The position numbers and the translations under genes are program-made. The notes beneath the pieces are model-generated. The model had not been told where the DNA came from, ran no database searches, and worked only from the letters and a program-made list of their open reading frames with translations. From Picochlorum sp. 'celeri' (taxonomy: Eukaryota; Chlorophyta; Trebouxiophyceae), in the NCBI GenBank assembly GCA_010909725.1, contig JAACMV010000021.1, positions 972,243-1,036,242 of the forward strand: DNA of 64,000 bases. The letters are read 5' to 3'. Positions 33,155-64,000 of this stretch are shown piece by piece; positions within the stretch are counted from its first letter, which is position 1; every line of letters begins with the position of its first letter.

Positions 33155-33950
33155 ATGGAAACCTCGGAAGGTAGCATGAGCAGGACTTTCCTGTGTCGTG
33201 TGTGCTCCAAGCCATTGCAAGAGGAGGTCGATCTACTAGTGAAAACGGTACAGTCCAGGTACGTTCCATGATTTTTCATGGTATATGTTGCCAAAAATAT
33301 GGATATGGAATACTTCAAAGCACAATGCGCAGGGCCATGACGGAGGAGCTTGTCGTTTTGCATCACAGTGAGAGCCAGATGCTTTTACTGATCGACATGC
33401 TCAGGGGCGTTTTGAAGGAGACTAAAGTCTCTGGAATATTGATTGATTCTCATGGCGTAGAAGATCTCATGATTGCTCTTCGTGATGAAGAAAGAGGGGG
33501 AGGGAGGATCCTCAAAGACCTGTTGGATACAAAGCCCCTGATGGTTGATGACCAGGTACGTGTACAACTGAAGGGTTCCCTGATCACTGCGATTGATATT
33601 TCTATAATATTCACTCAAACTCGCATACGCAGGCATGTACTTGTGAATTCGACCCAAGCATTGTCCAGGGAAGTGGGTATTGTAGCATGACCAAGTCTGA
33701 AATTGAAGATATTGTTGTTGGAAGTACTCGAGAATATTTGGTAGAGAATGGGTATCAATTACCTCAACACAAAATGAGAGATATCAGCTTTTTTAAAATT
33801 GGCCTAGACAGTCTTGATCTAATGATGCTCGCAGAAAGGATCTCGGAAAGGATCAAGGTGGAGATGGAGCTCACAGCTCTGATAGATTACCCTACAGTTG
33901 ACGCATTGTGCACATATATCAACAATCTTTGTGACCCTGATGCCTCGAAT
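33155..33950 (+). other. PKS N-terminal region and loading ACP
   Basis: Exons 1-3. The first ~127 residues match nothing I know; they hold a CxxC pair (FLCRVCSKPL) and a later CTCEF, perhaps a small metal site, and a helical part (QMLLLIDMLRGVLKE). A carrier protein follows (about 33687-33930) with the phosphopantetheine site GLDSLDLMM and the typical end DYPTVDALC. No acyl-CoA ligase or acyltransferase precedes it, so the starter must come from another enzyme. Confidence 0.7.
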
Positions 33951-36900
33951 GCTACTCGTGAAAGTATGTGTTATACCTGATCGCATTTGGTCCGATTCAT
34001 CCAATTTATGTGTATACATGCTTTGCAGGATCACTGCTTCCTCACATTCCCAGTCATGTTGTCCTTGGGGTCACAGGCATCAATTCAAACCTCCCGACGC
34101 GTTGTGAAGGACACATAAGCAGCTTTTCCGAGGATGGTATCACTCAAATTCCCATGAAGAGATGGGATATGGACCGCCATGGCTATACTGAAAGCCCCAC
34201 TGCGAATGCACAGGTTTTGACAGTTCGCTTTGGAGCCTTTTTGGAGAATATAGAATACTTTGATCCTACCATATGGGATATTCCTGTGATTGAGTGTGAA
34301 TATATGGACCCACAACAGCGCCTTTTGCTTGAAGCAGTCTCAGGATTGGCATTCGCTCTGGGAGCGGCTGTGGTCAAGTGTGGTATTTTCGTGGGAGCTT
34401 CGACCTGCGATTATCAATCCCTAATCTCGAAGCGGACTGAAGCATATAAGACGACTACTTCTTTTTGTGTGACTGCTACGGGGCTAGGGGTCATCCCTGG
34501 CAGGATAGCGTTCCATTTGGGCATGCAAGGACCTGCTATTGCCACAGACACTGCATGCAGTTCCAGCTTGGTTTCACTGAGTATTGCTCACCAAATGACC
34601 CAGCAAGAGGTCATTAAGTCTTCTTTCTCATGCGGATCTAGCCTTCTGATTGATCAGGGGCAATTTCAGGCGTTTGAGTCGGCAAACATGTTGGCAAAAG
34701 ATGGTAGGAGCAAGGCCCTTGATGCCTCTGCTGACGGTTTTGCGCGAGGGGAAGCCATCGTGGCTCTGCGGTTGGATGAAATTTCTGAAGACAGTCGTGA
34801 TGTTTTATGCGTCCTGCAAAGTATATATGTGAACCAGGATGGAAAGAGTAGCCGTTTGACAGCGCCGAATGGGCCTGCACAGACAGCGCTCATAACAGAG
34901 ACATTGAGGCGTTCCGCCTGCGAGCCCTCTGATGTGGCCAAGCTCATGCTGCATGGGACAGGTACCCCATTAGGAGATCCTATAGAGCTTGGAGCTTTAC
35001 TTAAATCATATCAGAGCTCAAACCAGGATACATGTGACAGCCAACGGAATTTGTGCGCCGTCAAAACATCGGTTGGGCACAGTGAAGCAGCAGCTGGCAT
35101 TGTTTCCTTGTCTGGGGCCATTGCCATGAAGTCAATGCAGATTGTTCCTGTTCTTCACTTGCGTCATTTGAATGAGCACTTGGAGCGGCTCGTGGAATCC
35201 TGTAGAGACAAAGGGTCCTGTCTGGGCATTAAGAGATGTTCTGCACCCAGCAATGGAGATAGGACTGACAGAGATTTCATTGGAGTCTCGAGTTTTGCTT
35301 CCCAAGGTACAAACTGCCATGCTATTTTGTCCCTCTGCCATCACCAATCGGTGCAAACACAGTCGGAATCAGTAACGAGAGACTTGTGGAGGAAGAAATG
35401 TATGTGGATTTTTGCTCTGCCAGAGACTCGAATAAAACTCGTTTGTTCCAGGGACACCTGCATTTTGTTTGAAGTGCCTGTTCATTTTCCCTCGCCTGAC
35501 AGCTTGCAAGAGTGCTTCTTAGAGGTATGTGATGTGCTGTCTCTTGCTTTCCAGAGATTCTGAAGAAAAAAATTAAATGTATAGTCGATGCATGTGTGTT
35601 GTTCAGGTGGCTTTGGACGCCGTGTCAGTCCTCCGAAGTGACAAGCAACTAAAGGAAGGCGGCCACGGACTTCAGGGCATAGTTTACAGGAAATTCGTCA
35701 AAGAGAAATTGAGCTTTTATATTATGAAGGTCCAAGTAGAAGTTGACGTAGTGGCGGCGTCTGTGGACGGCCTACGATGTTTCTTTGCAGAGGCTCATGC
35801 CTGCTCTCTACTTGATCTTTCGCAATGTACACCTTGCACCATTTGCCCACTGATGCCCACTGATGCTGTGAAGCCGGTTGCATCTCCTCCCATCTTTGCC
35901 AACAAAAAGCCGCCAACTGATTTTTGTCACACCCACGCGTTGGCACTACTAAATTGGATCCAGCTTGCTGATGATGGCACATTTGGTCGAAGCCCTCCGA
36001 GGCTACAATCACTTGCACTTTACACCTCTTGCGAGAGTTCTGGCAGGGATGCTTATCAAATCATAAATGAAGAGATTTGTTTATCTGCAAAAAGAACATT
36101 AAATGGATATTGTATGGGTTTCAAAAGAGATGTGCCCACCAATGCTGAAATTTATTATACCAGCAATGTCCTTGTGGATGAATGTGAAGGCGGGAGACAC
36201 GAGACAGTTCCCGAGAAATACTACCCTCTAAGCCTCCATAATGCGAATTATTTCGTGCCGCTGTCTATTTATGAGTGCCGGGACAGTTTCTTGGTCAGTC
36301 TTGGCTTTCTGCAGCAGTCCATGTCCTATGAAAAGTCCACTGGGAGAATAGGAAATCCACTGATATGCGCGAATGACTTCTCACTGGTTTGGACCCGGCA
36401 AGATACTACACTTGCCAAATTCTGCTATGCTGTCAGTCGTTCTTTTGAAAGAGAGACTTTCAATGGAAAGTTTGCTTTTGCGGGGAGCAAGGGGAGGACA
36501 AGAGGTGTTGATAATGAAATCTCTCTCAGGAGCACTCAGCCTGAAGAGGACAATAATGCTAGGCATTCACGCTCTAACAGAAAACTAGTTCATTGCATCT
36601 CACAGATGGATCATCATTATGGATATTTGATGCATCAAAGAAAGACGATGCCCTCTCCTTGGATGCTTTCTGGCGGCACCGGTGGGTTGGGCTGGCTTCT
36701 AGCAACATTATGTGCTGTGGACCACTCCCATGTCGTCTGCATGAGTAAAAGTGGTGTTCTAAAACAAGCAAGAATATCGGATATTGATTCGATCAGAAGT
36801 GATTCGGCAATTTCCATCGAGAGGTTCGTGAATGTGAAGAGCTGAGTGAAATTGATTTTTTTGCTGTCGTTTCCTGAAGATGCATCGTGCTGTGAATGCA

Positions 36901-39900
36901 GGGGGGAAGTGAGTTCCAACGAGGACATTGGTCAGATTGTCAACGATGCCACCTATAAGATGAGGACTTGTCGCTTCGTTCATGCAGGAGGAATCTTGCA
37001 TGACTCGAGCCATAGAAATGTGTCCCTCGAAACATTTCGGAAAATGTTTGCCCCAAAGGTGTCCGGGATCCATTGCATAACAAAGAGCTTGTTGATACAT
37101 TCCAATCTCCAAAATCTGATAGCCTTCAGCTCTATCGCTGCATTGCTACACCCTTCTGGCAGTTCAATATATGGAGGTATCAATACAATAATGGATACCC
37201 TAACATCGCGGTTGCCCGCGACAGGTATGCCCGCTGTTTCTATCCAGTGGGGTCCCTGGAGCTCGGTAGGCATGGTTGCAAAATCGTCCAAAGTCAGCAG
37301 CGCAATGAAAGCATTCGGAATTTCAATGCTGTCGACAGAACAAGGACTATGGGCATTTTCTACTTTACTGTCAATGAAGTCGAGTCCTTCACTGATCGCA
37401 GTTGTGCCCTTCGATGAAAGGCAGTCAAGTTGTGGTGCTACGCTGCAAGAGGTGATTCTCAGCAGAGCCTCCTCCAGGAGGCACCATCAGATGAGTGGAC
37501 CCCAGATCAGCAATGCTGATGCCAACTCCCTTGCGCCCAGAGTCCAATCGCTATTGTCCGCGATAATTGGTAACAGAATAGACAGCCAAATGGAATCTCT
37601 CATTAAGTACGGCGCAGATTCTCTCTGTGCCATCGAGATTCAGCAACAGCTGTCTGAAGAATTCCGCATAGACCTGCCCCCCTCATTCCTATACGACTTT
37701 CCCACAGTTCACTCTATGAGTACGGCAATCCAGGCAATGTTATCAGACAAAGAAGCTTATTGCTTGACAGCAGAGTTGAAAAGTGACTTAGACGGGCAGA
37801 AACATCAAGGTCCTCTTGGCATCAAAGAACTTGCCTCTCGTGAGCCTGATGGACTTTCGGGAGCCCGCTTTGATGTTGAATGCACAAAAAGTGCAAACTT
37901 CTTTCGATGGGATGTAGATGAACTTGCAGACAATGTTCCAGAAGCGAGGTTTGGAAAATTCCTGTCACATATTGACATATTTGATTCGGGGGTTTTTGGA
38001 ATATCGACTTTGGAAGCAAACCTTATGGACCCACAGCAGAGAATTCTTCTCGAGGTGCGTTGATCATAGTATCCAGCAATGTACATATATTTTGTTGAAT
38101 TAAACTATACACACACGCCTCCAGGATTCCTTAGCGCTGCGCTGTAGTTGTACCGAGGCACAAGATCAGGCAGTTGGAGTTGTCGTCGGTCTGTCGTTCT
38201 GGGACTACTCAAATCTGTCTGAAAGGCATACTCAGTCTCTTGGAGATGCTCTGAAACTGACAGGAAGAAATTTCAGCGTATCCTCAGGCAGGATAAGTTT
38301 CGTTCACGGTTACTCCGGTCCTTCCATGGCAGTTGATACGGCTTGCTCATCGAGCATTGTAGCAGTCAGCATTGCCTCACACCTGTTAACGAGGGAGCCA
38401 TTACGGTCCGTGATCGTTGGTTCGGCTCTTATTTCACTTTCTATTGACGTTATGAGATTTCTCGCTTCGGCGTCCATGATTTCTGCTGACGGGAGATGCC
38501 GAACCCTTGATGAGGGAGCTGCTGGATACGGCAGAGGAGAAGCCAGCGTGTGCATGCTCATTACGCGCTCTCCAGATGGTCCAACTGCCATTTGTGCAGT
38601 GACTGTAAATCAGGATGGGCACTCTGCTTCGCTGACTGCGCCCCATGGGCCTTCCCAAATTCAAGTCATTCGGCAAGCGTGTGCAAATGCTGAAATGTCC
38701 CCGGTAGATGTGGAGGTGCATGAACTCCACGGCACAGGCACCCCGTTAGGGGATCCTATAGAGCTTCTCGGTGTTTCTAAAGCTCAGGAAGAAGCATCAA
38801 ATGGTATGGCATCGTTGTTGTCCATCTCTACTTCCAAGACAGCCCATGGACACTCGGAACCAGCAGCAGGGTGCATAGGAATTCATTGGATTCTGAGGCA
38901 GCTTGAAAAGAAGATTATGGCCCCAAACATCCATTTAATAGAGGTTAGTAAGCATATAGCATCTGCGCTCCTTGCAAGTAAGAGGCCCATGTATCCTGCG
39001 AGGGAATGCCGCCCTATCGGATTACAGGAACAAAGAGCCTTCGCTTCTTTGAGCTCGTTCGCATTTCAAGGGACAAATGCACACGCAATCTTACAGTACG
39101 ATACTTCGAGGGATACCCAGTTTCGGGTAGATGCATTGAGATGTATGGCAGCGTATCACGGACATGTCTCTTGGTACTGTTCAACCGTACATGCTCTGAT
39201 GCACCCAATCAGCCCTACCTTCCCAGACCAAGACATCTCTTGGAGCGTTGGGTACAAGCAGAACTTTATTGCTCGGATGAAAGATCATAAAGTATTTTCA
39301 GCGAGCCTATTACCAGGAATGTGCGTTTTCGCAATCATGTCTGATGCGGCACAGTTGTGCCTTGCTGGAAGGGCTGATTACCAACACCTTCTCAGGAGTG
39401 CAAATATTGGGACGCCTGTGCATCTTGACGACGCACATAGCCTTGTGGCAAAAGTGTCACTTTCTACAGGCAAGGCCACGTTATCTGTGGATAACGGAAA
39501 CTGCAGCAGGCCCAACGCAATGTGTGGGATATGGTGTCTTTCTAGCCAGGGGCAAGGGCCCGTCAGCAAGGACCCACGCCCACTGGTGCTGAACACTCAT
39601 GCGAAACCACATACCAGTGCGCCTTCGATTGGCTTTCTTGCGCATGCTGTCGATCAAAAGGTCGAGATGGCAAATGTGCCTTCTCCTGAATTGCTTGATG
39701 GCTCAACTCATCTTGCCGCCTTCTCTGAAACTCTGAAAGGGAGGGCTGTCTCTGTACCCGTCTCGTCTGAATGCTTGAGCATCGCATTTACTAGCCTCCA
39801 TACTTCTAAAATAGTCCGATTTCAGGGCTTTGCAGTTTGCGATGATGCACGTGCAAATGAGAGGCTGAGAGACTACTTTGTCCATCTGCCAGGGACAAAA

Positions 39901-42900
39901 TACACGTATATCAAGTCGCTGTACTCGGCATCGATCAAACGAGAGAGATCTTTGGAGGCTAACTTTTATTTTTTAAATGTAGATCATATCAATAATACTA
40001 GAAAAGCTCGTGAACTGTCTGATATCAGGCACCGCCAACGAGCAGTACACAAGTTGCTAACATTGCAGGGGAGCATCACTTTTTCCTCTGCTAGGAGCCA
40101 TAAAAATCCTCTTTTGGAGTACTCGACGCTAATAGAATTTGTACGTACCCAGCATGGGAGATCATTCAGTTATCTGGCGCCCAAACTGTTGGGCGTGAGT
40201 TCGAGCTCAAGAAATAGCGGACAGCTTCAAGCGGCGAACACAGAAATAGGTTGTAAAGCAGACATCATAGAGCTCGATACCAGCGCCTGTAGACTGCACA
40301 CTGTCGACTCCTGGAAAGAGGTATCGATTCCCTATAGTCCGAATGAAAATACGTTCGGGCCATCGAAAAACTACAGGAGCCTGGCAGCGGGTATGGCTGC
40401 GGTTTCAGGGGGAACTGACGGCATAGGCCTCCTCCTGGGACAGTGGCTCGCATCAGGCGAGGTCGAAACGCAATCATCCATCGCACTAGTTGGACGAACC
40501 CCATTTCTCCCCACCTCGTTTCCTAAATCCTTTTCGCGCAACATTCCGGTGACGATAACGCAGCACGACTGCGCAACTGAGACGGGGACCCTTGGCATGG
40601 AAAAACTGTGCAGGGCTTGCACTGTTGGCTTTCGTGCAAACATGTTTCATGGAGCTGGCGTCATCCTGGATCAAACAATTACTTCCACGACTTTTGGATC
40701 TTCATTAAAAGTCTTTGCACCAAAATATTGGGGCATCAAACGGACAGCAGCACGCGCAGTGTCCTGTTTGGCTGTAGGAAGCATCGTCTCTTTGTCTTCC
40801 ATGTCAATCACGATAGGAAATCCAGGACAGACTAATTACATCGCTGCAAATTCAGCAATGGAAACTGTTTCACAGGATATTGCATACACAGGCATAGATT
40901 CTCGAATCATTCGATATGGCCCGTGGAAAAGTGTAGGCATGCTTGCAAAAAAGGAGAGTATCCTAAAGAGCTTGAGCAAACTTGGATTACTACCTCTCTC
41001 TCCTTCGCAAGGTTTGGCTGCGACAGAGACATTTATCCGATCTTCGCATTTATTTTCTACACTAGCTCATATTAAGTGGGAGACAAGCAATCGTGGTGAT
41101 CCATTCGACAATGAAAGGTGCAACTTGGATTCTGAGGGCTGCCAGCATTCTGAAACCATCGATCAGTTGTCAGATACTCGGGATTCGTACGATCATGTTC
41201 GATCAATCATTGTTGACATTCTCGCGGATGTTTTGGACGAGGTACCCTCCACTGATGATGATCCTTTCTTTGAGGTACGTAACTTGCTTGTATTTCACCA
41301 GACAAATGATATGAGGAGACATGCACCTTGTCCTGCAGATTGGTATTGATTCAATATCATCGATAGAAATTCATAGAAGATTGAATAAGAAGCTACAGAA
41401 AGATTTACCACCCACCATCCTATTCGATTATCCAACGGTGTCAAGGCTCGCAAACGCTCTCTGTGGGCATCTGGAGATCCGTGTATCACATGTCCTTCAT
41501 GTGGATAATGGGGAAGAGAAGGACCGCAAGGTATCCATTTGCGGCACATCTCAAATCCTTCCAAAGATAGGCCTGAGCTTGATTGAGGAATTTGTTAATT
41601 TGGTGCCTTCATCCACGGATCTTCATAGTGTGCTCCCAAAGGACAGGTGGGATTTTGAGCGACACTTTTCACTGTCAACGGGTGGCACGACAGCGTACAC
41701 GGGTATTGGTGCATTCGTCCCCAATATATGGGCATTTGACCAGGACTTTTATGGATTAAAAGCTAATGAAGCCAGACAAACAGATCCTCAACTGAGATCT
41801 CTGCTGCATACTACAGCAAATGCTATTCACTATTCTAGAAAAACGGATCGCCTCCGAGATACAACTTATGGAGTCTTTGTTGGGTGCATGTTCTACGACT
41901 ATTTGAGGATTATCCAAGGTGCTGCCTCGGGAATCGATGCAGCAGCTATCATTGGTAACGGGGCGCCCTACTTGTGTGGGAGGATTGCCTATACATTCGA
42001 CATGCAAGGCCCTTGTGCAGGCATCGATACGGCCTGTTCAAGCAGCCTGGTCGCTGTCGACAGCGCGTATCACGCAATATTGAACAGGCAAGTACGCCAT
42101 TCTGTGGCTTGCGGAACAAATGTTATCATCTGTCCAGGCACAACAGCGATGGTCTGTCAACTCGGAGCCCTGTCCAGATATGGACGATGCCTGAGCCTCG
42201 ATGCAACTGCAGATGGATATGGGCGCGGAGAGGGGATAGTGTCTCTTAACTTGTCGGCAGACCATAATGAGAACACTCTGGCTTCCATCAGAGCAACTGC
42301 AGTCAACCAAGATGGGAGGAGTATTTCAATGACTGCCCCAAACGGACCAAGCCAAGAGGCTCTTCTCCGCTCATGCTTATCCAAAGGGGGGCTCGCGAGT
42401 GATGACCTTGATCAGGTCGTAATTCACGGAACTGGCACCTTGTTGGGAGATCCAATTGAGTCTCAGGCACTGCATAATCTTTTGCAGGGACCAAGTGTCT
42501 CCCCGACCCACATAGCAGCTGTCAAGGCGCTTCTGGGGCATTGCGAAGGTGCTGCAGGGACAGTTGGTGTTCTTCTTTCTGTGTATACTGCATGCAGAAA
42601 GTCAACCGCATCAATTCAAACGCTGCGCTCGATGAACCCGCTAGTTCAGAACACCCTGAAGAGTGGGAAACTTGTACCAAGTCGCGAGCACGCGCCAGAA
42701 CGTGCGACAATAGCCGGCGAGACCGTCTCTGGAAGCAGCTCATTTGGGATGAGTGGTACGAATGCGCATGCAATACTTTCAGGCACGCAGGTCTTTACGC
42801 CGGGTCGGCAACACGAGACGCTGTTAAAGGATCGCATGTATTCTTTTAGACTTTTTGTTTCGGAGTCCCTCGAGTTCCTCGGACATGAGGTGCAACATGC

Positions 42901-45900
42901 ATTGGATCTGTTTGAGTACAACGCATCAAGCTCTACTGTGCAAGTCATGATGAATCATCAGATCACAGGTAAAACACTGCTTTTGTACCACCGCTCGATG
43001 GTATTTTTCTTTCCATTCCGCTCAATATTTAGTTGCAAAACATTTTGGTTGTGCAGGCCGTAGTATAATCCCAGCATCTTTACAGATATATATTTGCTTT
43101 CAAACTTTGCTGCAGACAACGACCACAAAATGCGAGTGGGGTATGAATACTTTTATCTTCTATAGGCCTTGTCTGATGAGCAATAATCTTCGATTGCTCG
43201 TACGTCACGATTTTGCTGAGGGCTCTCTTGCGATTCTGGACCGTGCAACCAGTGGTTTGGAATTCTCGTCGTCCCGGGTAGAATCTTTGTGCTGCCGCAC
43301 GGGATGGACATCCGGGGCATCCCGCTCGAGCCTCCAAAGCCACGTGATGCAAAACTTTTTCTCTGCAAAAATTACGGAGAAATGTTTTGCGCTGATCTCG
43401 GCGGGTGGGCGGCACGTTGCTCCCATTCTTGATGCCTCGTTCCACCTAGGCGCAATTCATCAGACTGATTGCAGAATACCAGTATCATGCGGATCAATCC
43501 ATTTCGGTGCCGATCCATCATTCAATATGACTAAAAGTAACTTTTTTTCGAGTGCTGAAAGCTCAAAAGAGTACCGAGACCAGAGCATGTACCATGGCCT
43601 TGGAAGGAGGGAGCATTTCAAATCCAGGCAAATGAAAGTAAAACGCACACAGGGTGATCTGATGCGCCAAGAATCTATCTGGCAATCCACTCCTGGTTTC
43701 AAAGTTTTGCAACCAGGAGCCAGAATAAAGCAGACAATCGCGCCATTCTATCAGGCGAGCGATCCCGAACCACTTCGATTGGTTTCAACAAGTTTGGAGA
43801 TGCTGTATGGAGGCATCGCAACAAAGGATGATGATTCCGTCTTTCTCTCCTATCAATATCCCTCCAATGATAGACAGTTTATAAATCAATATCCACTGGG
43901 AGCTTGCTTACAACGAGTTTACAATTCCGAAGCTAACCAAGGGCTGGTGCAGCCCTTGAGTGGAGAGATGACCTCAAGACAATTCGTGCCGTTTGACAAT
44001 GTCCCTGTCCAGTCATCGCTGCAATACCCCATACCAAATCAGACTGCTAAGACTCCCGGGATACAAGGCGGAACCATTTTATCCTCATTAGGAGGTATTG
44101 GCATTCTTCTAGCTCAATATTTTGCCACAATGGGCTCTGACATTCGTTCTTGCTCCCGACACGGCGTGACTGAATCGTTACCATTGAGCAAAGGAATAGA
44201 AATCACTAAAGCAGATGTATCGCATGCTGAGGATGTCCAGTTTCTGCTGTGCGATGCCACGCTCGGGTATGGGATCATGCACACCTCAGGATGTCTGCGT
44301 GATGGATTGATTCGCAGTATGGACTTGGAGGGCCTCCGGGCGACTTTGGCCGCAAAAAGGAACTCATTCGATCTCATCAACCATTATTCACATGGTTCCC
44401 CCCGGATGTACGTGTGCGCCTTTTCTAGCATTGCCAGTTCTTTTGGGTCCATCGGTCAAGCCGCCTACGCAGCTGCAAACCAGGCCTTGGACGCGGCGGT
44501 ATGCCAGTGCTCTGACAGCGGTTTGCCATCTCACAGTATTCAGTGGGGTTTGTGGGATGGCATTGGCATGGCGAGAGGGCTTCATACAGCCGCGTTGAAA
44601 CGCCTGTCCTCAATTGGAGTCTCAAGCATCACTCCTGTCGAGGGCTTGGAGCGGCTCGAAGCGTTACTCAGTCTCCAAAAGAGGCACCATATACCCATCG
44701 CGATGATTTGCAAGATTCACACCGATCTACTTGAGAAATATCTGGCGTCGCAGCCCCAATTAAGGCATCTACTGAGAGGCATCAAATCCCATCAAGACTT
44801 TGGTGGCCGGGAGATCTCGAGACCGAATGAGGTTGACAGGGTAAATCAGTACCCGGAGTACAACATTCCTCGGAAACTTAAGCTATTACTGTCCCAACAC
44901 GTTGACACCGAAGAGGATGACTTGGACTTGAGTGCTCCGGTTCTTCAATTGGGCTTTGATTCTGTCTCTTCTGTGGAGCTCTTGCAATCCCTGGAAAAAC
45001 AATTCCATGTGCATTTTCCTGCTACCTTTATGTATGACTATGTTTACTTCGACGATATGGTGGCCTATATCAAAGAAAAATTAGAAATAGATGGGCTCGA
45101 GGAGCACACAGCAGTCAGAATCACTCCAGTTGGACAACTCACCAAAAGGATCCAAATAGTGTGTACAGCCTCACTATTTGCAGGCGCCGATGATCTTCAA
45201 GGGGAGAGACTATCATTTGGACACGACTGTGCTGGTCCCACGCTGCGAAACTCGCCGGATGTACACTCTGAAGTTTTTGCATCGACTCTATCCAAGAGAG
45301 ACATCTTTGCGTTTGACAGCGATCTTTTCAAACTGCCGAAGACGACAGTAGTAGGTCTTGATCCGAATATACGCTGGATGCTAACGTTGACGAAAGAATT
45401 GTTTGGACGAAAGGAGGCAGTGCAGCGCAATTGCGGAGTGTACTTGGGATGGATGTGGTCGCATGAAAATTTCCACCGCTTGCAGCGAGATGGATATGCT
45501 TCGCAATATCTGGCATCTTCAGTAACAGGAAACTCTGCGGCATTTGCAGTCGGTTATACCTCCTATCTGTTCGAATTAAATGGGCCCAGCATCCCGATTG
45601 ATACCGCCTGTTCAAGCAGTTTGGTGGCGTTGCACACTGCCAATCAGGGCATGCAATCATCTGACTGTGTTGATGCAGTCATTTTGGGAGTCAACAGTTT
45701 CTTGGAAGACCAGACATGGACTAAAATTGAAGCTCTCAAGGCGCTGAGTCCCGATGGCAGATGCAAGACTTTTGATGCAGCAGCAGATGGGTATGGTCGT
45801 GGAGAGGCCTTCACGTCCTTGCACCTGAGTTCCTCCGATCAAAATAGCACTGCTAATCTGGTCGTTGGAACAGCAATTAACACAGTGGGAATAAGATCAT

Positions 45901-48900
45901 CGCTAACAGCGCCGCATGGTCCTTCTCAGGTGGATGTCATCCGGCAGGCCCAAGAGCGATGCGGCAATGTCCCCGTTTCGGGGCTCTTCTTGCACGGAAC
46001 AGGTACGAGTCTTGGGGATCCAATTGAGATACGAGCGCTGCAGCAAGCGCTGAAAGAATCTGGGGAATGCGGACCTGTTGCGTTGCAATCACCAAAGTCG
46101 TCCGTTGGCCACACAGAAGGCTCGGCTGGCTTGACAAATATTTTAGCAGCACTCGCTGCGATGCAGTCGCAGCAACTGATGCCCATCCATAATTTACGCT
46201 CGCTAAATCCTATGATAGCTCTCATCCCTGGTACAGCATCTGTGACCCGTACATTACGCCCCCATTCATGCGAGACACCTGCATATTCTGGTACGTGATA
46301 CAGCAACCCCGACCCTCTAGTTTATATCAACTTACACCGATGATCCCTTTTTGATCAAATAATACAGGGTCTAACTCATTTGGAATGACGGGAGTGAACT
46401 CACATGCAATTATGCTGCATTCAACCGGGGCGGCAGATCATCCATCCTCAAGTGATGTGGAAATGGGTTGGATGTCACCAGTCGGTTGGACCCAGCACGT
46501 CCTCCGAACTGGCGAGAGCAGCAATGAATTCCACGTGCTACCCCATATATCAATGAAAGCTTCATTTCTAAGAGATCACTGGGTGAATAAGCAGCAGCTT
46601 CTTCCTGGAACATTATTCATTGAGCTCGCCAAGGAAGCATTGGCCTTGCTCAGTCAAAATGGCCTTCAGCCGCTGTCCAACATCTCGTGGAATGTCGGTT
46701 GCCTATTTGATGATCTTCCTGGTATTAAATTGACTATCGAAGATAAGGGAAGGATCAATGTGAGTAAGAGAGGCGTGAGGTGCGCATGCACCATGGACTG
46801 TGTTCAAACCCTGGCACAGAGTGGGGGCATCAGTACGAAGGCCCCATCACCGCCATGGCCTGTACCATTCTCGGATACCACATCCGATACAGCCTCGTAC
46901 ATCTCTAATTCTTCGTCTGAAACTTCGTATCGCGGCCATCCACTATGGATCGCCTTGCCCACGGACGCAATGTTGCATTTGGGAGCAATTGACAGCAAGG
47001 CGATGCATATTCCAGTAGCCATGAAATTTTTCCTCGACAGACAAGTCTTCAATCCACCTGCCTGTATTTCTACCTTACCTTCAAATACAGAGAATCGGAA
47101 GTCGACAGGGGCACTATCACTGGGCGTCACTGCAAATACAATCAGCATTGAGAGTCATTCCCTCGTGGGAAAAGCAGTGATTCAGGGAGCCAACAATGCT
47201 GGACGCCAACCCCCTGAGAAAATGTACGCCGAGATATACAATGCCTCTTGTCCAACTCCTCAAGAGTGGGAGAACTCACGAGCGGCTTCTGGCAACCGAT
47301 TCGTCATAGATGGTCGCATCAGTGTACTGCCATTGCGTGATGCTAAGCACCCTGTCGTTGGCGCATTTCAGCAGTCAATGTCTATTCTCCGGGGCTCTAT
47401 TGGCCATCATATTCATCTACTAGCACCGCGAGAGAGGTCTCTTTGTTCGCAAAGATCAAAAGACGCAGAGGATACCGCTGTTCAGGAGGCAACTATGCAA
47501 ACATTCAGCAAGGAGCAACTTGGTTCGGCAGTCATGACAAGGTACTCCGATTTAAAAGCACAAACAACATCTTTGGATCATGGCACAGTATCTCATAAGG
47601 CATACCAGCTTGAAGATGCACGAGTGGAATACAAATCTACCTTTATTGGTCAGTATTGGCACCCAGAAACATATTTCCCAGATCAGCTCCTCCATGATGC
47701 TCTGCCTGATTCCGGAACCAAAACATCCCTCGGTAAGGACTTGAACCATTTTTCTGGATGTGATAATATGAAGCAAGGAATATCAGTCAATCTTTCCGCG
47801 GTTGGCTTGAATTTCCGCGATCTTTTGATGGCCCTGGGCATGTACCCAAGCGAGTCTACGGATATCGGCAGTGATTTCGCGGGCTTCGTCTCCTCTTCCC
47901 GTTTCGCTGATTTTAAACGAGGTGATGCCATTTTCGGACAGACTTTTGGCACGTTTCACCAGGAAATCAATGTCGATCCCGATACCATCTCCCATATCCC
48001 ACCAAGCATTTCACACGAAGAGGCATCGGGCATGCCCACGATATACCTGACTGCAATGGCTTGCCTGAAATGTTTGGCAACCACATCTGGAGAAGGTAGC
48101 CTTTTGATTCAATCCGCAGCTGGTGGATTCGGGATTGCGATGACGGATATGGCAAGGGCATCTGGAATGTCTGTTGTGGCCACAGCAAGCACGCCACTGA
48201 GACGATGCTTCTTGCGTGCACGATGCAATCATACATTCAATAGTAGAACTACTGAATTCGTCGAAGAAATCACAACACGTCCGTCCCTCTCAATTAAGAG
48301 CGTGGTCAATACCCTGACATCGCTAGGAATGGTTGCCGCCTCCTGCTCGTTGTTGCAGGTGGGTGGAACCTTTGTTGAGGTGTCGAAGCGGCAGATCTTT
48401 AGTGCTCATAGGATGCTGCAAGAGCGCAATGATATTTCACACCACACTGTTGCGGTGGATATCATGCCATCCAAGGCCCTGAAACAAGACTTGCAACAAA
48501 TAGCAAAACTTGTTGCGCTCGGGGAGATTCGACCATGTCCATGCACCACGATGCCTCTTACTCGCCTTCGCCAGGCTCTTCTTAGATTCAAATCACCCAA
48601 TAACATTGGCAAAATAATCTGGAGGAACAAGAGAGATGATGAGACGAGCGGAACATGGCTCGTCACCGGAGGTCTTGGAGCCTTGGGTATGCTCACAATC
48701 TCTCTTCTTGTTTCGAGAGGCTGTAATATTGCCGTTCCAACGAGAACTGCAAAATCTTGCCCAACAATCCTACGGGATGCACATGGAAGCGTATCAATGC
48801 AAATTGCGAGCATATCCCAAGCAATTGGCTTGAGAGAATACTTCAAGCGAAATCAAAAGTCGGTCGATGGAATTGTGCATTCCAGCGGGATCCTGCAAGA

Positions 48901-51900
48901 TGCCTTGCTTCTCGATCAAACTCTCGGACAAGCAAGAGAAGTCTTCGCTGCAAAATCTTCACCAATTCAGATACTTCAGAATATTGCGAGGAACGAACCT
49001 TTGTCCAGGATCGTATTATTCAGCAGCATATCCTCCGTATTTGGCAACATTGGGCAGGCAAACTACTGCAGTGCAAACAAAGTCCTCGACATTTCTTCGC
49101 AAAAGTTCAGCCAAGCTGTACGTCTTTTATTCTTTATTTACTTTCCCTGCGATTGATGGCAGTCTCACGATGAGTTGGACGATGCAGGGACACGGCAGTT
49201 TTGTCATCAACTGGGGACCATGGGCTGGAGGAGGGATGGCAGCAAACCTCAACGCATCGGTCCTTGAGTCGGCAGGGCTGTCCCTTATAAATCCAAAATA
49301 TGGAATGTTTATGATTCAGCACTTTGTGAGCAGTCGACTAGCGTCCCATCTCTCTGGTTATGTCTGTGTCTCGTCACAAATGGAGCTCGACCAGCAATTG
49401 GCAACGAGCAACAAGAACGACGGGGACCAACAATTGTACCGTGCGAGACTACCCGAATCATCCTCCACAAAGCGCAACACAACATATTTTTCACGAGAAT
49501 TTATTGGCAGAGAGATTCGATCGATAATTTCTTCACTTTTAGAAAGGGATCTGGACCCCTCTGCTCCATTGATGGCCTCTGGACTGGATTCTCTAGGTAT
49601 GGCAATTTCTCTGATTTTTATTCCACACATGTCTTCTGATCTCACAGGCCCCTTCCTTGACCACACTTTCTTCTTTCCAGGATCTATTCAACTTGTGACG
49701 ACTTTATCGAAAACATTTGCTATCGAAATCTCGTCGACTTTCCCGTTTGACCATCCAACCATGCAGAGCATGGCAGACCAGATATTTGCCATGAAATGCC
49801 CAGTCATACGCGCACCGAGGACAAATTTCGGCCCTACAGACTCTCCAACTAGATCCCCGCAATCCAAAAGAGGCCTCAGCATTGTTGGGGTTTATTCGCT
49901 GCTTCCAGAGGTGGAGGGACACGGGGACGCTGGACGAGTGGTGCCGTTCGACCGGTGGGACTGGGACGCGACACAGTCAACCTTTAAACTCTCTAACTTT
50001 ATTCGTTTCGGGGGGTTTCTTCCTTCGATTAGAGTTGAGACTTTTGATATTTCGCTGTTCAGGATGTCTCTAGGAGAAGCCAAGATCATCGATCCACAGC
50101 AGCGATGCCTCTTGGAGGGGGTCGCGTCCTGCAGAGGGCAGCAGGCCAGGCAAGACACGTGCGTTGCAGTGGGTATTGCACGCCTCGAAGATCCTTGGGA
50201 GACTATTTACTCGACTCACAATTTAATCTTGCAAGGCAATGGCATGGTGTCCACGTCGAGAGCTGCCAGTGCAGCAGCTGGAAGAGTTTCATACACCTTT
50301 GATTATAAGGGGCCATCCTTATCTATTGACACGGCATGCTCTAGTTCTCTCGTAGCCCTCAAGGTAATTGAAGATATAGTCTCTCAAAAGGAGTCCACAG
50401 AGGGAATTTTGTGTGGAGTGAGCCTGCCGATGAGCGTACGAACAAGCATGATGCTGGCGTCCAGCTCAATGCTAGCAAGAGACGGCAGGTGCAAAACGCT
50501 AGATGCCTCGGCTGATGGCTATGGCAGATCAGAGGCCTGCTTGGTCATGAAATTGAGGCCTCGACAGCTCCATACTTCCACTAGTGCAGGGGTTATACTC
50601 TCCCAGGGAGTCATTATCTCCTCCGCGGTAAATCAGGATGGGGCCTCCTCGTCATTGACAGCCCCACATGGTCCAAGTCAGGAGCAGGTTTTGCATCAAG
50701 GTCTCTTGAATGGTAGGATCACTCCCATTCAAGTCCATGTGGCTGGAATGCATGGCACGGGGACACCACTGGGCGATCCAATAGAGATTTCCTCCCTCCA
50801 GCAAAAGTTCTCCACCAGAGGCATTCCTCTCACCCTGGCTTCCTCAAAAGCAAGGTACGGTCATGCCGAAACAGCATCGGGCCTCGTCGGCCTTCTATGT
50901 GCTCTCGGAGTGACCAGCAACTCGAGCACACAGAACATAGTCAACCTTCGGTACTTGAACCCACACATGACGGCGGCCTTCAAAAAGGAGAGCACTCTCC
51001 ATGCCCCCAGGGAGAGTGAGCCATACGTGCACCAGGATCAGACCGGGATATGCTCAATCAGTGCGTTTGCGTTTCAGGGAACTAATGCATGTGCATTTGT
51101 GGACAGAGAGCCAGTTCAGCCTGGAGATGGTGGACTTGATTCAGCAGATGAAGGCCTGAATCTCCTCAGTCAGCAAGCAGACATTGCAGGACCCAAGTGC
51201 CACAGACTGGTCGCCAGGATTCTCTTGAACAAACACAATGAGCCCGCTTTCATGTGCGGAAACGCAGCACCTGCGCTTAAGCTGATGGATCACGTGGTAA
51301 ACGGAAGATCGACATTGCCTGCTGCCGGAGTCATTCATCTCGTCCAAACAGCCGTCGATTCACTGAGATACGACGACGGCCTAACGCTTCTAAGCAATCT
51401 CAATTTCAAAAACGTGAAACTTCTCTCGGCAAGGAAAGCGATCGACATGGTCGTGAAGGTCCGTGCAGGGCGAGTATCGGTAACAGAGGAGCGTGATCAT
51501 GTGATTACGGAACTGTGTTCGGCACAAGTGGCACGCCTTACGAAGTACGAATTGTGTATCAATACTACTTGCATGTGATTGCAAGCTCCTGATGTGACTT
51601 CACACGATGCCTTGATGCTGCAGGAGGAGCGTGCTGCGAGGGGAATCATATCACCTCGATGCTGGGGGAAATAGGACATCCAAAACGAGAGTAGGAGGTA
51701 TCATTCTAGCGGCTCGTCCCGACTCCACTTCGTATGGCCTCATCGACAGTCGATGTACCGAGTTCGTACACTCTTTAGATTCCAATTGGCACCTTTTGGC
51801 AGCAACGCAATCGACCCCAGAGGACCTGCATATCCCAAGTACCTTGAATGTATTTCAGCAAGACACTGCAAAGGACTGGCATCGTCATATAGGGTATGCA

Positions 51901-54900
51901 AGCCTTCGTCAGTTACCGACTCCATCTTTTGATGGGATCAAGTTTATTTCCTCGGCTTTGCGATGCGAAGAAGGTGAACTTCTGCACCTTCGAGCCCACA
52001 ACATGGCACTCAGAAGGATTCATCAAACCAAGCGTGCAAAGAGCCAGCCTCTGTTACTTTCTCTGGAGACACGAGTCCTAGAACCGTTTTATTACAGAGT
52101 TCAATCGTATTCGAATCCTACGTCGTTGATGACGCCACGTGGGGCCCCTGCTGCAAGCTTATCAGCACAGATGTGCACCATTCTCCAGGCCTTGCAGACT
52201 AATGGCCATAGAGTCTGGTCACATGCCTCGATTCTCCCTTCCGATCCAGCAACAGTTTGTCATATTTGTTGCAAAAAAAAATGGCGGTGGAGTCAACTCG
52301 GCCGCCCTCGGCAGTATTAAGGAGCTGCCTGGATTTGAGAGACTTCAATCTAACGAACCCAGCACCCGTGCAATGATTGACGTCCCCGAGGATTCAGACA
52401 ATACTCTGAGCAGCTCATATTCGAAATTTGATGTGATTATAACAGGTGGAGCTGGAGGCATTGGCACGGCTGTGCAACAGTGGCTGTCTTTCCAGGGGAT
52501 CGGCACTGTGTGCTTTTCTAGGAGGGGATATGGAAAATCAAGCCCACGTTCGAACCACTATGGCGCTCCAGTTTTGATTCAAATCTTGATGAACGATGTT
52601 ATTGAGCCCGACACTGGCTGTATGAGAGAGATTTTTCCCGGCCATTATACGATGCATGCAGCTGGTGTGCTCCATGACCAACTCATCAGAGATATACGCA
52701 TTGACAAGTTCAGGCGAGTTTTCTCGCCCAAATACTACGGATCTATACGACAGACGGAAAGCGGTGAGAGACTTGGAGCGAGAGGGTATCTGTTTTTCGG
52801 ATCCATTGCTGCCGTGTTTGGTAACGTAGGACAAACCTCCTATATTCTCGCCAACTCGGCCCTCGAAGATGTTGCTTCGAGGCTTTCCAACGGGGGTATA
52901 TTATCATCCGTAATTCACTGGGGTCCATGGCAGATCAAAGAGGGGATGGTGACATCCAAAATTCAGAGGAGCCTCCTGCAGCAGGGGATGGCAATGCTCT
53001 CGCCACTTGACGGGCTGTCCATTCTTCAAAATCTGGTGATATACCACACACGTACTGTTGCACAAGGCTATCATATATATTGTTGTTTTGATCAAAACAG
53101 GTCATCTTTCTTTGATCGCAAAGGAGACGACACAGTAGGACAACGCAATGGCCCTGCAATAGCAGAGCAGCAAACAGGCGCCGTCATCATGGCCACCGTG
53201 ATTCGAATCGCCACCAGTCTCATCGCTGCGAGCAGCGAAGAGCTGAGAGAATCATCCAGATTTGTGGACCATGGGTTGAGCTCCTTGCTAACAGCAGAGT
53301 TTGCAGAAGCTCTAAATAACGAATTTCATGTCGGGGTCACCAGCACTGTGGTATTTGACTACCCAACGGTCAAGGATCTGAGTGAATTTATCGTCGCAGA
53401 GACCTCACGCAGGCATGACATCGTCGCACCCAATAGAGCAGCATCAATCGCAACAGTTCTAAGTAAAAACGAGATGGAGAAGCCCATAGAAATTGTGGCG
53501 CAGGCCCATCGCTATCCTACTGGACGCATGTCGGGGGCGATAGAGACGGTATGGGCAGAAGCCGATGATTTCCAGAGCACCACACCTCCGTCGAGATGGG
53601 ACATCGACGAACACTTCTCGCCTGCATCGACATTGGGTAAGATGTATGTAAGATTTGGCTGCTGGCTGGAGAGGGTTGATCATTTTGAGGGCCATTTCTT
53701 CGGTCTCTCTCCTCAAGAGAGTCTCACGTTAGACCCTCAGATTCGTATTCTCATGGAATTGTCTCAAGAAGTGCGATCTAAGGTGAAGCTGCATCCTTAT
53801 ACATCGAACTTTGTCGGTGTCATGTACAATGAGTATTTAGACGCGGTGTTGGGCCCAACAAGTATAGCAGACGAAGTCCCATCTAGCATAACAACCAATG
53901 GAATGTCGTTCATGGTAGGGCGCATAAGCTACCACCACAGAGTTCAGGGTAAGGCGGCAGCTATCGACACGGCGTGCTCTAGCAGCCTCGTGGCAGCCCA
54001 TTTGGGGTACCTCTCTGCAGCAGAAGAGAATGGAGCACACTCTCTTGCCCATGGCATCAACCTGATGCTCAGCCCTCAGACCACAGCAAGGATCTGTTTG
54101 ATAAAAGCCCTCTCTCCGGTCGGCAGGTGCAAAACCGCCGACTCTACAGCCGATGGGTACGGCAGGTCGGAATCTGGGTGCACGATATGCATGGCACCTG
54201 TGGGTTTGGAAGATGGGATTGTGGTTCTTGGGAGCAACGTGTCTCACAATGGAGCCAGTGGCGGCCTGACAGCCCCTCACGGACGCTCCCAGGCAAACCT
54301 AATCCTTTCTATCCAGTCTCGTTCCTACAATCATGGGGCACCAGCGGTCGTCTCCCTGCACGGGACGGGAACTGTGCTCGGTGACCCGATAGAATTTGGG
54401 GCATTGAAGACAGTGTTGGCAGAAACCCTTCCAAAAGAAAACAAAAGCATATACCAGTCTCTTGTGGCTACAAAGGTATGCAATGATTTTCGTGTATTTT
54501 AGTGATAATATTCTTCCTTCGCGTGCTGCTCTCACCTGTGTTGTTGTATCTGCCCCCCTTTTCAGGCGGCCATGGGTCATACGGAGGGTAATGCTGGGCT
54601 CTGTGGCCTCCTCCTCCCTCTGTCCAATATACAACGAAGGCTCTTATCACCAATCAAGCATCTCAGGTATATAAACAGTTATATTGAGACCTTGCAAGGA
54701 GAAAAGCCCCATCGTTTCGTCCGACAAGCAGCTCCTCACTTTTGTGATGAAATTGGACCGAGGGCAGCCTATTGCACCAACTCGTTCGGAATGAGCGGGG
54801 TGAATGCACACGTGATGTGTGACGTACCAATTTCAGGTGAGGTTCGGCATGACGCGGCATTATCGTCAAGGAAGACGCTGCCATGGCATCGAACACGAAG

Positions 54901-57721
54901 CTGGCCGTTGCCCCCAGCACCAATGTTTCCGTTAAGACACGTGACTACAGCGGCACATCGGCTGACATTTTCGGCAGACCTAAACCGACAGAGTCTCTGC
55001 TGGATAGAAGATCACATTGTAGGACGTAGTAGCATTCTTCCAGGCTCCGTAAGCTTGTCCATGTTCTCCCAAGCGCTCCAGAGTGTCTCCGAAGATGTCA
55101 GTTCCCATGCAATTTCAAATGTTGCATTCATTAGACCTGCCTTCTTGACCACGTCAGCATACTTCATTCACATGGAGGAACAAAATATAGTTTTGAGCGA
55201 TACCAGACGTGCCATGACTGTCGCAGCAAATATCAGCAGTCTCGTCAGAAGAATCGCCAAGGATGATGGATTGCCCAAGAGCGTTCACGTGTTCAGATAT
55301 CAGGCGACCGGGCCAAAATACGCTGCAAGCACAGCAGTTCCCGGGAAATCAGTTCCGTTTTCTGCTTGCACACTGGATGCTGCTATGCACTTGGCTCTCG
55401 CTGCCTGGCCCACAGGCCAACGCAGACAGGTGCCAGTTAAACTGGGCCTGTACCACTGCATTTCTGGGTTTGCTGACCCTTTCATCTCATCTCACAAGGA
55501 CTTTGGTGATAATACAGTAGCCGTGCAAACCAAAGATCAATCGATTCAAGGACTACAATCCTCCACAGTGCCACTGCTTTCGGAGGAATCTCAACAAAGG
55601 TTGCCTGCGCCATCATTGTACGCTCGCGAGTACCTTGTAGACACCGGATGGACTTCATCCACACCCGTTTCCTCGATTGACTCTTGTATCTTGAGGGGAG
55701 AAAACTCGATGGAGATGGGATTCACAGAATGGTACGCCCCACTGGAAGTAGCAAAACTGGATGGTATTTGGCCGTGTAATGCTCTCACCTTTGTCATGGG
55801 AGGAACTGACAACCATTCCCGGAGGAGCGACGCCATGCAGTCCCTGGCATCCTCATTGGCCAAGGTGATATCTGCAGAGATTTCTACGTCGACCGTGCGC
55901 TATTTGGAGGTGCCACCCTTGTCTGCGCTCCCACGCCTGCCAGGTGTGAAATTTCCTGTTGGGGCTGGGGACGTCATACTGCAGGGAAGAGTCATGGCCA
56001 CTCCAGGGTATGAACCCTATTATACTCTTCATAAAACCACATTGGATCATTCAGAAATTCAGGATCAAAGTTTTGGAGCCACTGCAGTTGTCACCGGAGC
56101 CTTTGGAGGCATTGGCACCCTTGTTTCAGAGTGGCTGGCGAGCCACGGGCAGCATTTGATACGGTCTGGGAGGGGCATGCCCACTCGACCAGACCTAAAT
56201 GACACAGGAAGATTATCACTGCAAACATGTGTCAAGGCTGATGCAAGATTCGCATCTGACTTGCCTCAATTGCTAGAAGGCCCATCGTCATCCCATCTGC
56301 AGGGCATGCATCACACATCCGGAGTTTTGAAGGTGAGGCACGGCATCAAGCTTGCCGTTTACGCCGCTCTCGCCATTGAGATCACCCACTAATGGTACTA
56401 TGTATGTGCACCGCAGGACAAGATGTTGTTCAGAGCAAATCTCGGGGACTTGCTGCATACTGCCGCTCCCAAATGTGCCTCCCTGGATTTGATGCTGGAC
56501 CATGCAAACCTTCACAGGGCGCAGTATACTCTTGGATACAGCAGTATAAGTAGCATCATAGGTAATGCTGGTCAGCTAGCATATACCTTCGCAAATCGTC
56601 AGTTGAATGCAATATGCAGCAAGAAGAGAGAATGTGGCATGGATGTCACCGCGGTTGCCTGGGGACCGTGGAGTGGCATTGGAATGGTCGCCCATGCTGG
56701 CCTTTCGGCGGATTCGTTTTCCACGGGCATGAGGCCAATCGCGCCACAGGAGGGCCTTTCACTGCTCTCGGCCATCCTTGGACCAGCCCGGTCTTCTGGG
56801 CTGATTATTGCTGGAGCGTATGATCAGGATGTGTTCGGGGCCTCGGCAACATCATCGTCCCGAGATGGGGCTCCAGGCACAAAACTTGACATTTCCACGA
56901 TTGCAGATGAAAGGGGTGTAGACCGATTTTCGAGCTTGGAGGATGTGACTTTGTACGTGACGCACACAATTGAGAGACTGTTGGGTGCGCCTCTAGGCAT
57001 GTCTGACAACATCGCCGGAGAACTGGACTCGTTACAGTCGGTCAGCGCGACTGAACAACTGTCTACTGCGTTGCAAATTGAAATACCGCCCACCGTGTTG
57101 TACGACTATCCACGGCTCCAGGACCTGGCACATCACCTTGGCAGTCTGTACATTGCAAGGGCACGGAGCAGAAGCCCCCAATCCACAAGGACTTTGGACC
57201 CAAGCACAGAGACCCAATGGGGGCATGGAAACACAAGATCTCGTGAGTCGCACACTACAGTGCGGACCACAGTCCCAGAGCTGACCACCATGGAGAAACG
57301 TCGACCCATGTTGCCTGCTGGATACTACTGCAGGCCCACCATCGACCACATCAGAGCACTGTCTCCAAAAGATCTTGCTTCAGTCGAGAACTTCGTTGTG
57401 GGCAGGGAAGGAGTCGGCGAGATTCGGTACCTATATCCAGTCGACTTGACAAACGTTGACCTGCACAAGAGCGTCACAATCACCAGAGCAGGCATGGCCA
57501 TAGCCGGCACAGCATCCAAAGAGCCGGGGCAGGGCCTCAACCAACCGGCGATCCTGGTCTTCAGGGGGACCTCGAAGAAGATGTTTCGGTCACAGAACGC
57601 GAGGAGGCTGCTTGTGTCAAAGTTGCGAGCAGCATGCGATAGAATGGGAGCTACCCTGGTACACGTGGATGAGGATGCTGCAGAGTGGATGGTAAAGATA
57701 GACTGTTTCACTATCAATTGA
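33155..57721 (+). CDS. Giant modular type I polyketide synthase with C-terminal Nup98-type autopeptidase domain
   Basis: Exons: 33155-33258, 33333-33555, 33633-33963, 34029-35524, 35607-36823, 36902-38054, 38125-41274, 41339-42968, 43057-46290, 46368-49117, 49188-49596, 49681-51544, 51624-54475, 54566-56332, 56417-57721. All 14 junctions keep phase with GT...AG introns of 62-90 bp and rebuild known motifs across splices. The sum is 23,485 nt, one base over a multiple of three: one frame break is needed, at an A9 run (52273-52281). Product about 7,827 residues: unknown N-terminus, loading ACP, six modules (six KS, seven ACP in all), then an S59-like domain. No acyltransferase (no GHSxG outside KS blocks) and no thioesterase or reductase is seen, so acyl units must be loaded in trans. 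Reductive domains predict a partly reduced, mostly unsaturated chain. A TATA-like block lies at about 33097. Product unknown. Confidence 0.88.
34029..37760 (+). other. PKS module 1: KS - degenerate DH-like - KR - ACP
   Basis: KS1 (34029-35340) has the Cys in DTACSSS (about 34547), the first His in LHGTGTPLGDP and the second in TSVGHSEAAAG. The following ~430 residues have the place and length of a dehydratase plus structural KR half (a weak FCHTHALALL block near 35930) but no HxxxGxxxxP motif. KR1 shows SGGTGGLGWLL (36664), FSSIAALL and YGGIN, then WGPWSSVG. ACP1 has YGADSLCAIE (about 37606). Predicted outcome: a beta-hydroxy group. Confidence 0.75.
37850..41470 (+). other. PKS module 2: KS - DH - KR - ACP
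   Basis: KS2 spans the exon 6/7 junction (37900-39100): MDPQQRILLE, DTACSSSIV (38332), ELHGTGTPLGDP and TAHGHSEPAAG. DH2 has DHKVFSASLLPG (about 39283) and the second-site block LLDGSTHLAA (about 39691). KR2 has SGGTDGIGLLLG (40408) and NPGQTNYIAANSAME. ACP2 is split by the exon 7/8 intron just before GIDSISSIE (41342). Predicted outcome: a double bond. Confidence 0.8.
41520..45090 (+). other. PKS module 3: KS - DH - KR - ACP
   Basis: KS3 (41540-42800) has DTACSSSLV, VIHGTGTLLGDP and ALLGHCEGAAG. DH3 is split by the intron 42969-43056; the splice restores the HxxxGxxxxP motif (NHQITGRSIIPAS), and LDASFHLGAIHQ gives the second catalytic site (43429). KR3 has an unusual nucleotide loop (GTILSSLGGIGILL, 44070) with Y and N in AAYAAANQALD. 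ACP3 has LGFDSVSSVE (about 44950). Predicted outcome: a double bond. Confidence 0.78.
45100..49800 (+). other. PKS module 4: KS - DH - ER - KR - ACP (fully reducing)
   Basis: KS4 (45120-46430) has DTACSSSLVAL, LHGTGTSLGDP and SSVGHTEGSAG. DH4 has RDHWVNKQQLLPG (46573) and TDAMLHLGAID. The enoylreductase (47560-48610) shows SAVGLNFRDLLMALG and the nucleotide loop SAAGGFGIAM, the only ER in the protein. KR4 has VTGGLGALGML and NIGQANYCSANKVLD. ACP4 is split by the 84-bp intron 49597-49680 just after GLDSL. Predicted outcome: a saturated two-carbon unit. Confidence 0.8.
49850..53420 (+). other. PKS module 5: KS - DH - KR - ACP, contains the frame break
   Basis: KS5 (49865-51110) has DTACSSSLVAL (50329), MHGTGTPLGDP and ARYGHAETASG. 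DH5 has MDHVVNGRSTLPA (about 51286) and, after the intron 51545-51623, a weak second block YHLDAGGN with Asn in place of the usual His/Gln. The frame breaks at the A9 run 52273-52281, just before KR5, which has ITGGAGGIGTAV (52440) and NVGQTSYILANSALE. ACP5 has GLSSLLTAE: the Ser is kept but the preceding Asp is Ser. Confidence 0.72.
53450..57150 (+). other. PKS module 6: KS - DH - KR - ACP
   Basis: KS6 spans the exon 13/14 junction: DTACSSSLVAAH (53965), LHGTGTVLGDP, and the His of AAMGHTEGNAG is restored by the splice at 54566. DH6 has EDHIVGRSSILPG (55008) and TLDAAMHLAL (55372). KR6 has VTGAFGGIGTLV (56092) and, after the intron 56333-56416, NAGQLAYTFANRQLN and WGPWSGIG. ACP6 (56935-57140) has GELDSLQSVSATE. 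Predicted outcome: a double bond next to the carrier thioester. Confidence 0.78.
57300..57721 (+). other. Nup98-type autoproteolytic (peptidase S59) domain at the PKS C-terminus
   Basis: The last ~137 residues follow the Nup98/Nup145 autoproteolytic domain block by block. GYYCRPTIDHIRALSPKDL fits the YYT-P-x(n)-L start. ENFVVGREGVGEIRYLYP fits the FtVGRxGyGsI block. VDLTNVDL and the GQGLNQPAILVF block (family: vGeGLNrkAevtL) follow, and the end WMVKIDCF-TIN replaces the KVsHF-S cleavage site. In Nup98 the domain cuts itself between Phe and Ser and docks on Nup96 or Nup88-type partners. Here the base His is Cys and the nucleophile Ser is Thr, followed by only Ile-Asn and the stop. The domain shares exon 15 with ACP6, joined by a ~50-residue Ser/Thr/Arg-rich linker. 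Family assignment comes from my recall of the pattern. Confidence 0.78.
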
Positions 57722-62164: not shown

Positions 62165-62433
62165 GACAATAAAAAAGGACGACCACGGCAAAGTAACCGT
62201 CAAGTATCCAGCAAGTATCCAACAAGTAACCGGCAAGTAACCGTCAAGTATCCAGCAAGTATCCAACAAGTAACCGGCAAGTAACCGTCAAGTATCCAGC
62301 AAGTAACCGGCAAGTAACCGTCAAGTATCCAGCAAGTAACCGGCAAGTAACCGGCAAGTAACCGGCAAGTAACCGGCAAGTATCCAGCAAGTAACCGGCA
62401 AGTAACATTTTTGGTCGGGTTTTTTTTATTGTA
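62165..62433. repeat. Inverted-repeat element, copy D, expanded by a minisatellite
   Basis: Left arm GACAATAAAAAAGGACGACC (62165-62184) and right arm GGTCGGGTTTTTTTTATTGT (62413-62432). The space between the arms, 20-50 bp in the other copies, is here filled by an 11-bp tandem repeat. Confidence 0.65.
62191..62406. repeat. 11-bp minisatellite, about 19.5 units
   Basis: Units AAGTAACCGGC, AAGTAACCGTC, AAGTATCCAGC and AAGTATCCAAC follow one another without gaps. The first part shows a higher-order pattern of four units (CCGTC, CCAGC, CCAAC, CCGGC), the later part is more uniform (several CCGGC units in a row), which suggests recent local expansion. Confidence 0.9.
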
Positions 62434-62686
62434 TTCTATTCCGGAAGGCAGTGTCCTGGCGACAGGACGACTTCCCGGTCGCCCACAGGACATTAATTAA
62501 TGTGGGTTACAGCACCAGCCTGGGAGTTCCCGGTCGACGGAGGAATTCGTCCATCGGAGGCCCCACTCCAGACATCATTGGCGAAGAGGAAAAAAAAATA
62601 AGAAAACAGAGAAAAACAAATGCAGTGGCAAATAAATCTACGCTATTGATTCAACTCGAGATACAACTCCACCTGTTATCAACCCA

Positions 62687-63850: not shown

Positions 63851-64000
63851 ATTATCCATTTATTCAATATTAATCACCGTGGGGCACCGTTTCTTCGGCA
63901 GTCCGTGTTTATTTTTTGTTTGTGTGGCGGAGTGGGTGCTAGTACTGCGTTATTTACCCTCATTACCCTTGGCCCGGGAGAACGACATAGGCACAGCGTT

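Follow-up and report, generated by a model that had tools for sequence, protein, structure and literature searches.

Why should a polyketide synthase (PKS) of a green alga end in a domain of the nuclear pore? The question is raised by a stretch of 64,000 nucleotides of Picochlorum sp. 'celeri' (contig JAACMV010000021.1, here C21, positions 972,243 to 1,036,242; hereafter the window, whose own numbering is used throughout), in which a plus-strand type I PKS gene with six ketosynthase (KS) modules has a Nup98-type autopeptidase domain (APD) as its C-terminal end. The last exon (56417..57721) reads open through 434 codons to its stop (TGA 57719-57721). It encodes the end of the last ketoreductase (KR6, 56417..56674; Pfam, 47.4 bits, with WGPW found by motif scan), the last acyl carrier protein (ACP6, 56966..57139; Pfam PP-binding, 30.9 bits, with ELDSLQS in the motif scan and its Ser codon at 57029-57031), a variable tether (57140..57316) and the APD (57317..57712), which matches positions 2-144 of the 148 of the PF04096 (Nucleoporin2) profile. 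At the very end (CF-TIN, 57704..57718), Cys replaces the catalytic His, and Phe is followed by three residues and the stop. The first-pass annotation had claimed this order without a stop in between, and Pfam and the reading frame bear it out. The nature of the terminal domain held up as well: PF04096 scores it at 72.1 and 75.3 bits (curated cut-off 28.4), and its structure model has the APD fold, aligning with the human Nup98 APD (1ko6 and 2q5y) up to residue 863. An 84-nt GT..AG intron (56333..56416, inferred from sequence) splits the KR6 profile into positions 1-93 in the exon before and 93/94-179 in the exon after (Pfam). Since the profile resumes across the intron, the last exon is part of the PKS gene.

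The fusion had been proposed to be genuine, and this is upheld by the single open frame, by both haplotypes and by all six database relatives. The genome of Picochlorum celeri is described, in the excerpted text of PMC7225527, as a phased diploid of 27.43 Mb, with 15 scaffolds in each of its two sets; the assembly used here has 27,412,692 bases in 30 contigs, among which C21/C1, C8/C17, C3/C23 and C4/C30 are pair-like. The fusion is also present on C1, and the two haplotypes are 99.3% identical across 32.8 kb. In the part of the last exon that was compared (796 bases), a single substitution and, in the tether, a 3-bp gap that keeps the frame are the only differences. The relatives are open reading frames (ORFs) of 349-409 amino acids in a collection of publicly available genomes and metagenomes. 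Among 300 candidates, the window APD matched four proteins at E <= 0.001; three are fusions (P0002, P0003 and P0004, with 85%, 59% and 62% identity to the query) and the fourth, P0005 (E 1.4e-5), is Nup98-like. Of 188 candidates for the APD of P0004, five matched at E <= 1, and each is a fusion: P0004 itself, P0002 and three new ones (P0006, P0007 and P0008). PF00550 and PF04096 occur together in one ORF in each of the six relatives; three also have the KR motif WGPW, and Pfam finds a KR in P0002. These searches are not exhaustive: the P0004 query returned neither P0003 nor the window exon, and candidates were scored only between 0.55 and 1.75 times the query length, a range that misses single APDs of the subfamily. 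A long query yielded no full-length PKS-APD protein (69 candidates of 3300-10500 amino acids, none at E <= 0.001), and 123 pattern matches in viral contigs included no relatives. The source name of P0006, 'nuclear pore complex protein Nup98-Nup96', shows that at least one such ORF was named from its tail alone. An assembly chimera is ruled out by the presence of the fusion in both haplotypes and in six further records.

What the domain may still do depends on its last residues. Nup98 is cleaved after the Phe of His-Phe|Ser (Phe863|Ser864 in the human protein); the Nup98 crystal chains end at HF. In the model of the window domain, the terminal Phe (residue 140) is the last aligned residue and pairs with human residue 863 in both structures. 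The alga's ordinary Nup98 retains EVEHF|SRYGLDD. The fused APDs end in KIDCFTIN (window), KIDCFNIG (P0002), KVDCF (one), KVDFF (one) and KVDSF (three): the His position is held by Cys in three, Phe in one and Ser in three, and five of the seven chains have the Phe that precedes the scissile bond as their very last residue, while the other two continue for three more. Hence, none has the His-Phe|Ser/Thr, with chain after it, of an active S59 autopeptidase. Truncation hardly explains how five separate sequences come to end at one residue. The loss of His, together with a chain end at or near Phe, means that the fused APD is made as an already-cleaved product; with Thr after its Phe, the window copy might still lose the three residues TIN, but no more.

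Six relatives have the fusion but no longer the self-cutting site, a pattern which suggests that the tail serves the synthase for docking; of the roles first proposed for the domain, docking is the one left standing. The APD anchors Nup98 via the N-terminus of Nup96 or the propeller of Nup88, as stated in excerpts of PMC11148069. The genome of the alga encodes both proteins, and the N-terminus of its own Nup96 is SRYGLDDTSDDEE. We propose that the PKS APD would be neither a protease nor a release catalyst, and that it would instead serve for docking, mature from the start and joined to the synthase by a flexible tether some 70 residues long. It would most likely bind a Nup98-type ligand and in this way fix the synthase to a partner. 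Foremost among the candidates would be the Nup96 N-terminus and Nup88 at the nuclear pore, followed by a trans-acting protein bearing a Nup96-like peptide. Judged from sequence, a catalytically dead docking module for which pore partners are named first is somewhat probable, and docking of some kind, to pore and non-pore partners taken together, is quite likely. The most specific version, in which the PKS is tied to Nup96/Nup88 at nuclear pores through a captured Nup98 domain that is matured in advance and has been kept since before the carrier lineages split, is a tentative possibility.

Several observations weigh against this proposal. The fused APDs are only 30-34% identical to the APD of the alga's own Nup98, and are about 12 residues shorter, with several gaps of which the longest spans six. 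In a tree of 13 rows, the seven fused APDs are split from the Nup98-type rows by a branch with support 100/100 and a length of 2.06 changes per column; this tree has six Nup98-type rows and a midpoint root, and the program warned that long branches join in it. Low identity, shorter length and long branch imply that the partner surface may have changed. The Nup98-like P0005 (688 amino acids, 19 FG dipeptides) likewise has the P1 Phe as its last residue (EIDSF), and APDs without a cleavable tail therefore occur outside the fusion too. Finally, the stop positions of the relatives were taken from the ends of database proteins, not from DNA. Net charge is not informative on an acidic ligand (0 to +4 in the fused APDs, -5 to +8 in the nucleoporins).

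The alternative that survives best keeps the docking and changes the partner: the APD would dock the synthase to a trans-acting thioesterase, an acyltransferase (AT) or the next synthase, carrying a Nup96-like N-terminal peptide, and would thus act like the docking domains of other PKSs while having a new origin. The strong divergence from Nup98 is in its favor, and so is the composition of the gene, which has neither an AT nor a thioesterase match. A six-frame search of the genome with PF00698 gave no AT match within this PKS gene and six matches in all, every one of them on other contigs (C3/C23 and C7/C24). This makes it a trans-AT PKS, putatively as to whether those ATs serve it. On balance, we hold the non-pore partner to be rather unlikely.

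The earlier suggestions that the tail might process itself or release the product fare worse. According to them, the APD would self-cleave, or off-load the polyketide by an N-to-O acyl shift in place of the absent thioesterase. There is no PF00975 (thioesterase) or PF07993 (NAD_binding_4) match near the gene at E <= 0.01, and the PKS thus shows no terminal thioesterase or reductase match as cis release domain. Three other PKS loci have PF00975 matches at their downstream ends (C8 143.6k / C17 140.2k; C4 312.7-315.1k / C30 315.5-318.0k; C3 979.0k / C23 958.9k), in an open frame shared with KR/ACP matches on C3/C23 and C4/C30, and the APD here occupies the place where those loci have the thioesterase match. 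Moreover, Thr follows Phe in the window copy, and the title of structure 5hb6 (Chaetomium Nup145N APD, T994A) suggests Thr at that position. Yet, the catalytic His is replaced in all seven sequences, five have nothing after Phe to be cut off, and P0002 has Asn there. An intrachain acyl shift would need a new active site to handle an ACP-bound thioester, and the tether is long and unconserved. Release or self-processing is thus very unlikely.

It is more improbable still that the APD has a gene of its own, or an overlapping transcript that starts at the ATG at 57290, with the PKS stopping at ACP6. This ATG is in good context, preceded by ACCACC, and the length filter of the searches (at least 0.55 of the query) kept lone APD proteins from being scored. 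But none of the seven sequences has a stop after ACP6, and the tether, measured from YDYP to YC.P, stays at 65-74 amino acids in all of them. The chance of 65-74 open codons in random sequence is 0.03-0.04, a figure that is supportive only, as the matches were preselected as long ORFs. There is no Met between ACP and APD in four of the six relatives (P0002, in spite of its 85% identity, P0006, P0007 and P0008), whereas P0004 has one directly before YC, and P0003 and the window have two each. Because most tethers lack Met, the ATG at 57290 is not a conserved start. The haplotype difference within the tether also respects the frame. A separate gene is thus, from these comparisons, unlikely in the extreme.

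The conservation of the tail informs on its age and its use. Mean identity over 21 pairs is 0.63 in the APD, 0.49 in the ACP, 0.28 in the KR-ACP linker and 0.22 in the tether (for the tether columns used); the end of the KR has 0.55 over 6 pairs only. The window APD is 52-89% identical to the other fused APDs, and five of the six relatives have only 52-61%. The gap between these values and the 30-34% shared with the alga's own Nup98 rules out a recent copy of that gene, and implies that the fused APD predates the split of its carriers. The idea of a functionless, harmless leftover of an old fusion, which the loss of cleavage chemistry might favor, has hardly any chance of being right given an APD better conserved than ACP, tether and linker and without a single gap in those five distant relatives.

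In the host PKS, the Pfam scan covered 14 of the 15 plus-strand ORFs of at least 150 amino acids between 29823 and 57721, and gives the module order KS-KR-ACP (three times), KS-DH-ER-KR-ACP, KS-DH-KR-ACP and KS-DH-KR-ACP-APD, where DH and ER stand for dehydratase and enoylreductase; these repeated modules, with KS motifs intact, are those of a type I modular PKS. A GLDSL motif at 33801..33815, found by motif scan in an exon outside the Pfam scan, suggests a loading ACP before KS1 (34130..35161, with DTACSSS and HGTGT). Then come KR1, ACP1 and KS2 (36894..38937), KR2, ACP2 and KS3 (40396..42586), KR3, ACP3 and KS4 (44088..46196), DH4, ER4, KR4, ACP4 (a partial match) and KS5 (46544..50906), DH5, KR5, ACP5 and KS6 (51282..54430), and DH6 with the first part of KR6 (54941..56332). 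DH5 scores 21.5 bits, under the cut-off of 27. The DSL pattern, which ACP3 and ACP5 (both matched by Pfam only) lack, occurs at 33801, 37611, 40320 (followed by a stop and assigned to no ACP), 41342, 49581 and 57020. A pseudogene is ruled out by the six intact KS motif pairs (DTACSSS and HGTGT), with the qualification that the haplotypes differ by five indels in 24.7 kb (and 128 single-nucleotide polymorphisms), three of them of a single base. Elsewhere in the genome, a giant PKS (G000:C4:312657-343121) has an open frame of 10443 codons, and its end shows thioesterase matches at three positions; its counterpart on C30 lies in frames of 2993 and 3086 codons.

Upstream of the PKS lie a Vps52 gene (23899-26031), a GH47 gene on the minus strand (27025-29598) and an SBP-box piece (30276-31898). 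Downstream are dispersed repeats at 58023-58070/59143-59190 (48 nt, 85% identity, spacing 1120) and 58775-58840/59637-59702 (66 nt, 73% identity, spacing 862), which suggest diverged duplicated units, and an array of an 11-bp unit (62147-62437; 18 overlapping registers of 104 nt, 63-100% identity). Contig C21 ends at window position 64000 and its partner C1 seemingly extends about 97 kb past the corresponding point; truncation of one haplotype at the window end, or a difference in structure, may account for this.

A PKS with such a domain was thought to be undescribed, and in word searches of the open-licence PMC literature we found no description of a protein joining a PKS to a nucleoporin domain; nucleoporin terms are absent from the main texts of PMC10794256, PMC12633428 and PMC4661987. 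The fusion shows that the Nup98 APD can be taken out of the pore and used again as a module, set permanently in the state that follows cleavage. The cell location of the algal giant PKS and the ligand of its tail can now be tested directly. A pore partner would link natural-product synthesis to the nuclear envelope in a new way, and with a non-pore partner the APD would be a PKS docking domain of a new type, of possible use in engineering.

Compared with the S59 domain of Nup98/Nup145N (PF04096), the PKS copy has the same fold, core residues such as GxGLN..A, and a C-terminal P1 Phe like mature Nup98, but it lacks the His of HF|S/T, some 12 residues of the alga's own Nup98 APD and the Nup96 part. 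Nor is its carrier an FG-repeat protein: the seven fused proteins have 0-1 FG dipeptides (P0005 has 19), Pfam finds KR and ACP upstream of the fused APD, and the alga's FG-repeat Nup98 is encoded elsewhere. Yeast Nup116, named in excerpts of PMC5653651 as a tether of the Nup82 complex, and P0005 likewise lack a Nup96 part and have the APD at or near the C-terminal end, but they are FG nucleoporins and not a metabolic megasynthase. The APD of trypanosome TbNup158 has lost its catalytic residues too (PMC4758718, in excerpts), in a protein that stays a single FG/alpha-solenoid nucleoporin. On the side of the synthase, the chlorophyte multimodular type I PKSs with displaced AT, as presented in excerpts of PMC4661987, are similarly large and modular, and the present gene has no AT match of its own. 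Three other PKS loci in this genome end with a thioesterase match and this one ends in an APD. The docking domains of bacterial PKSs are likewise terminal, non-catalytic modules that recruit partners, with a fold and an origin unrelated to those of the APD.
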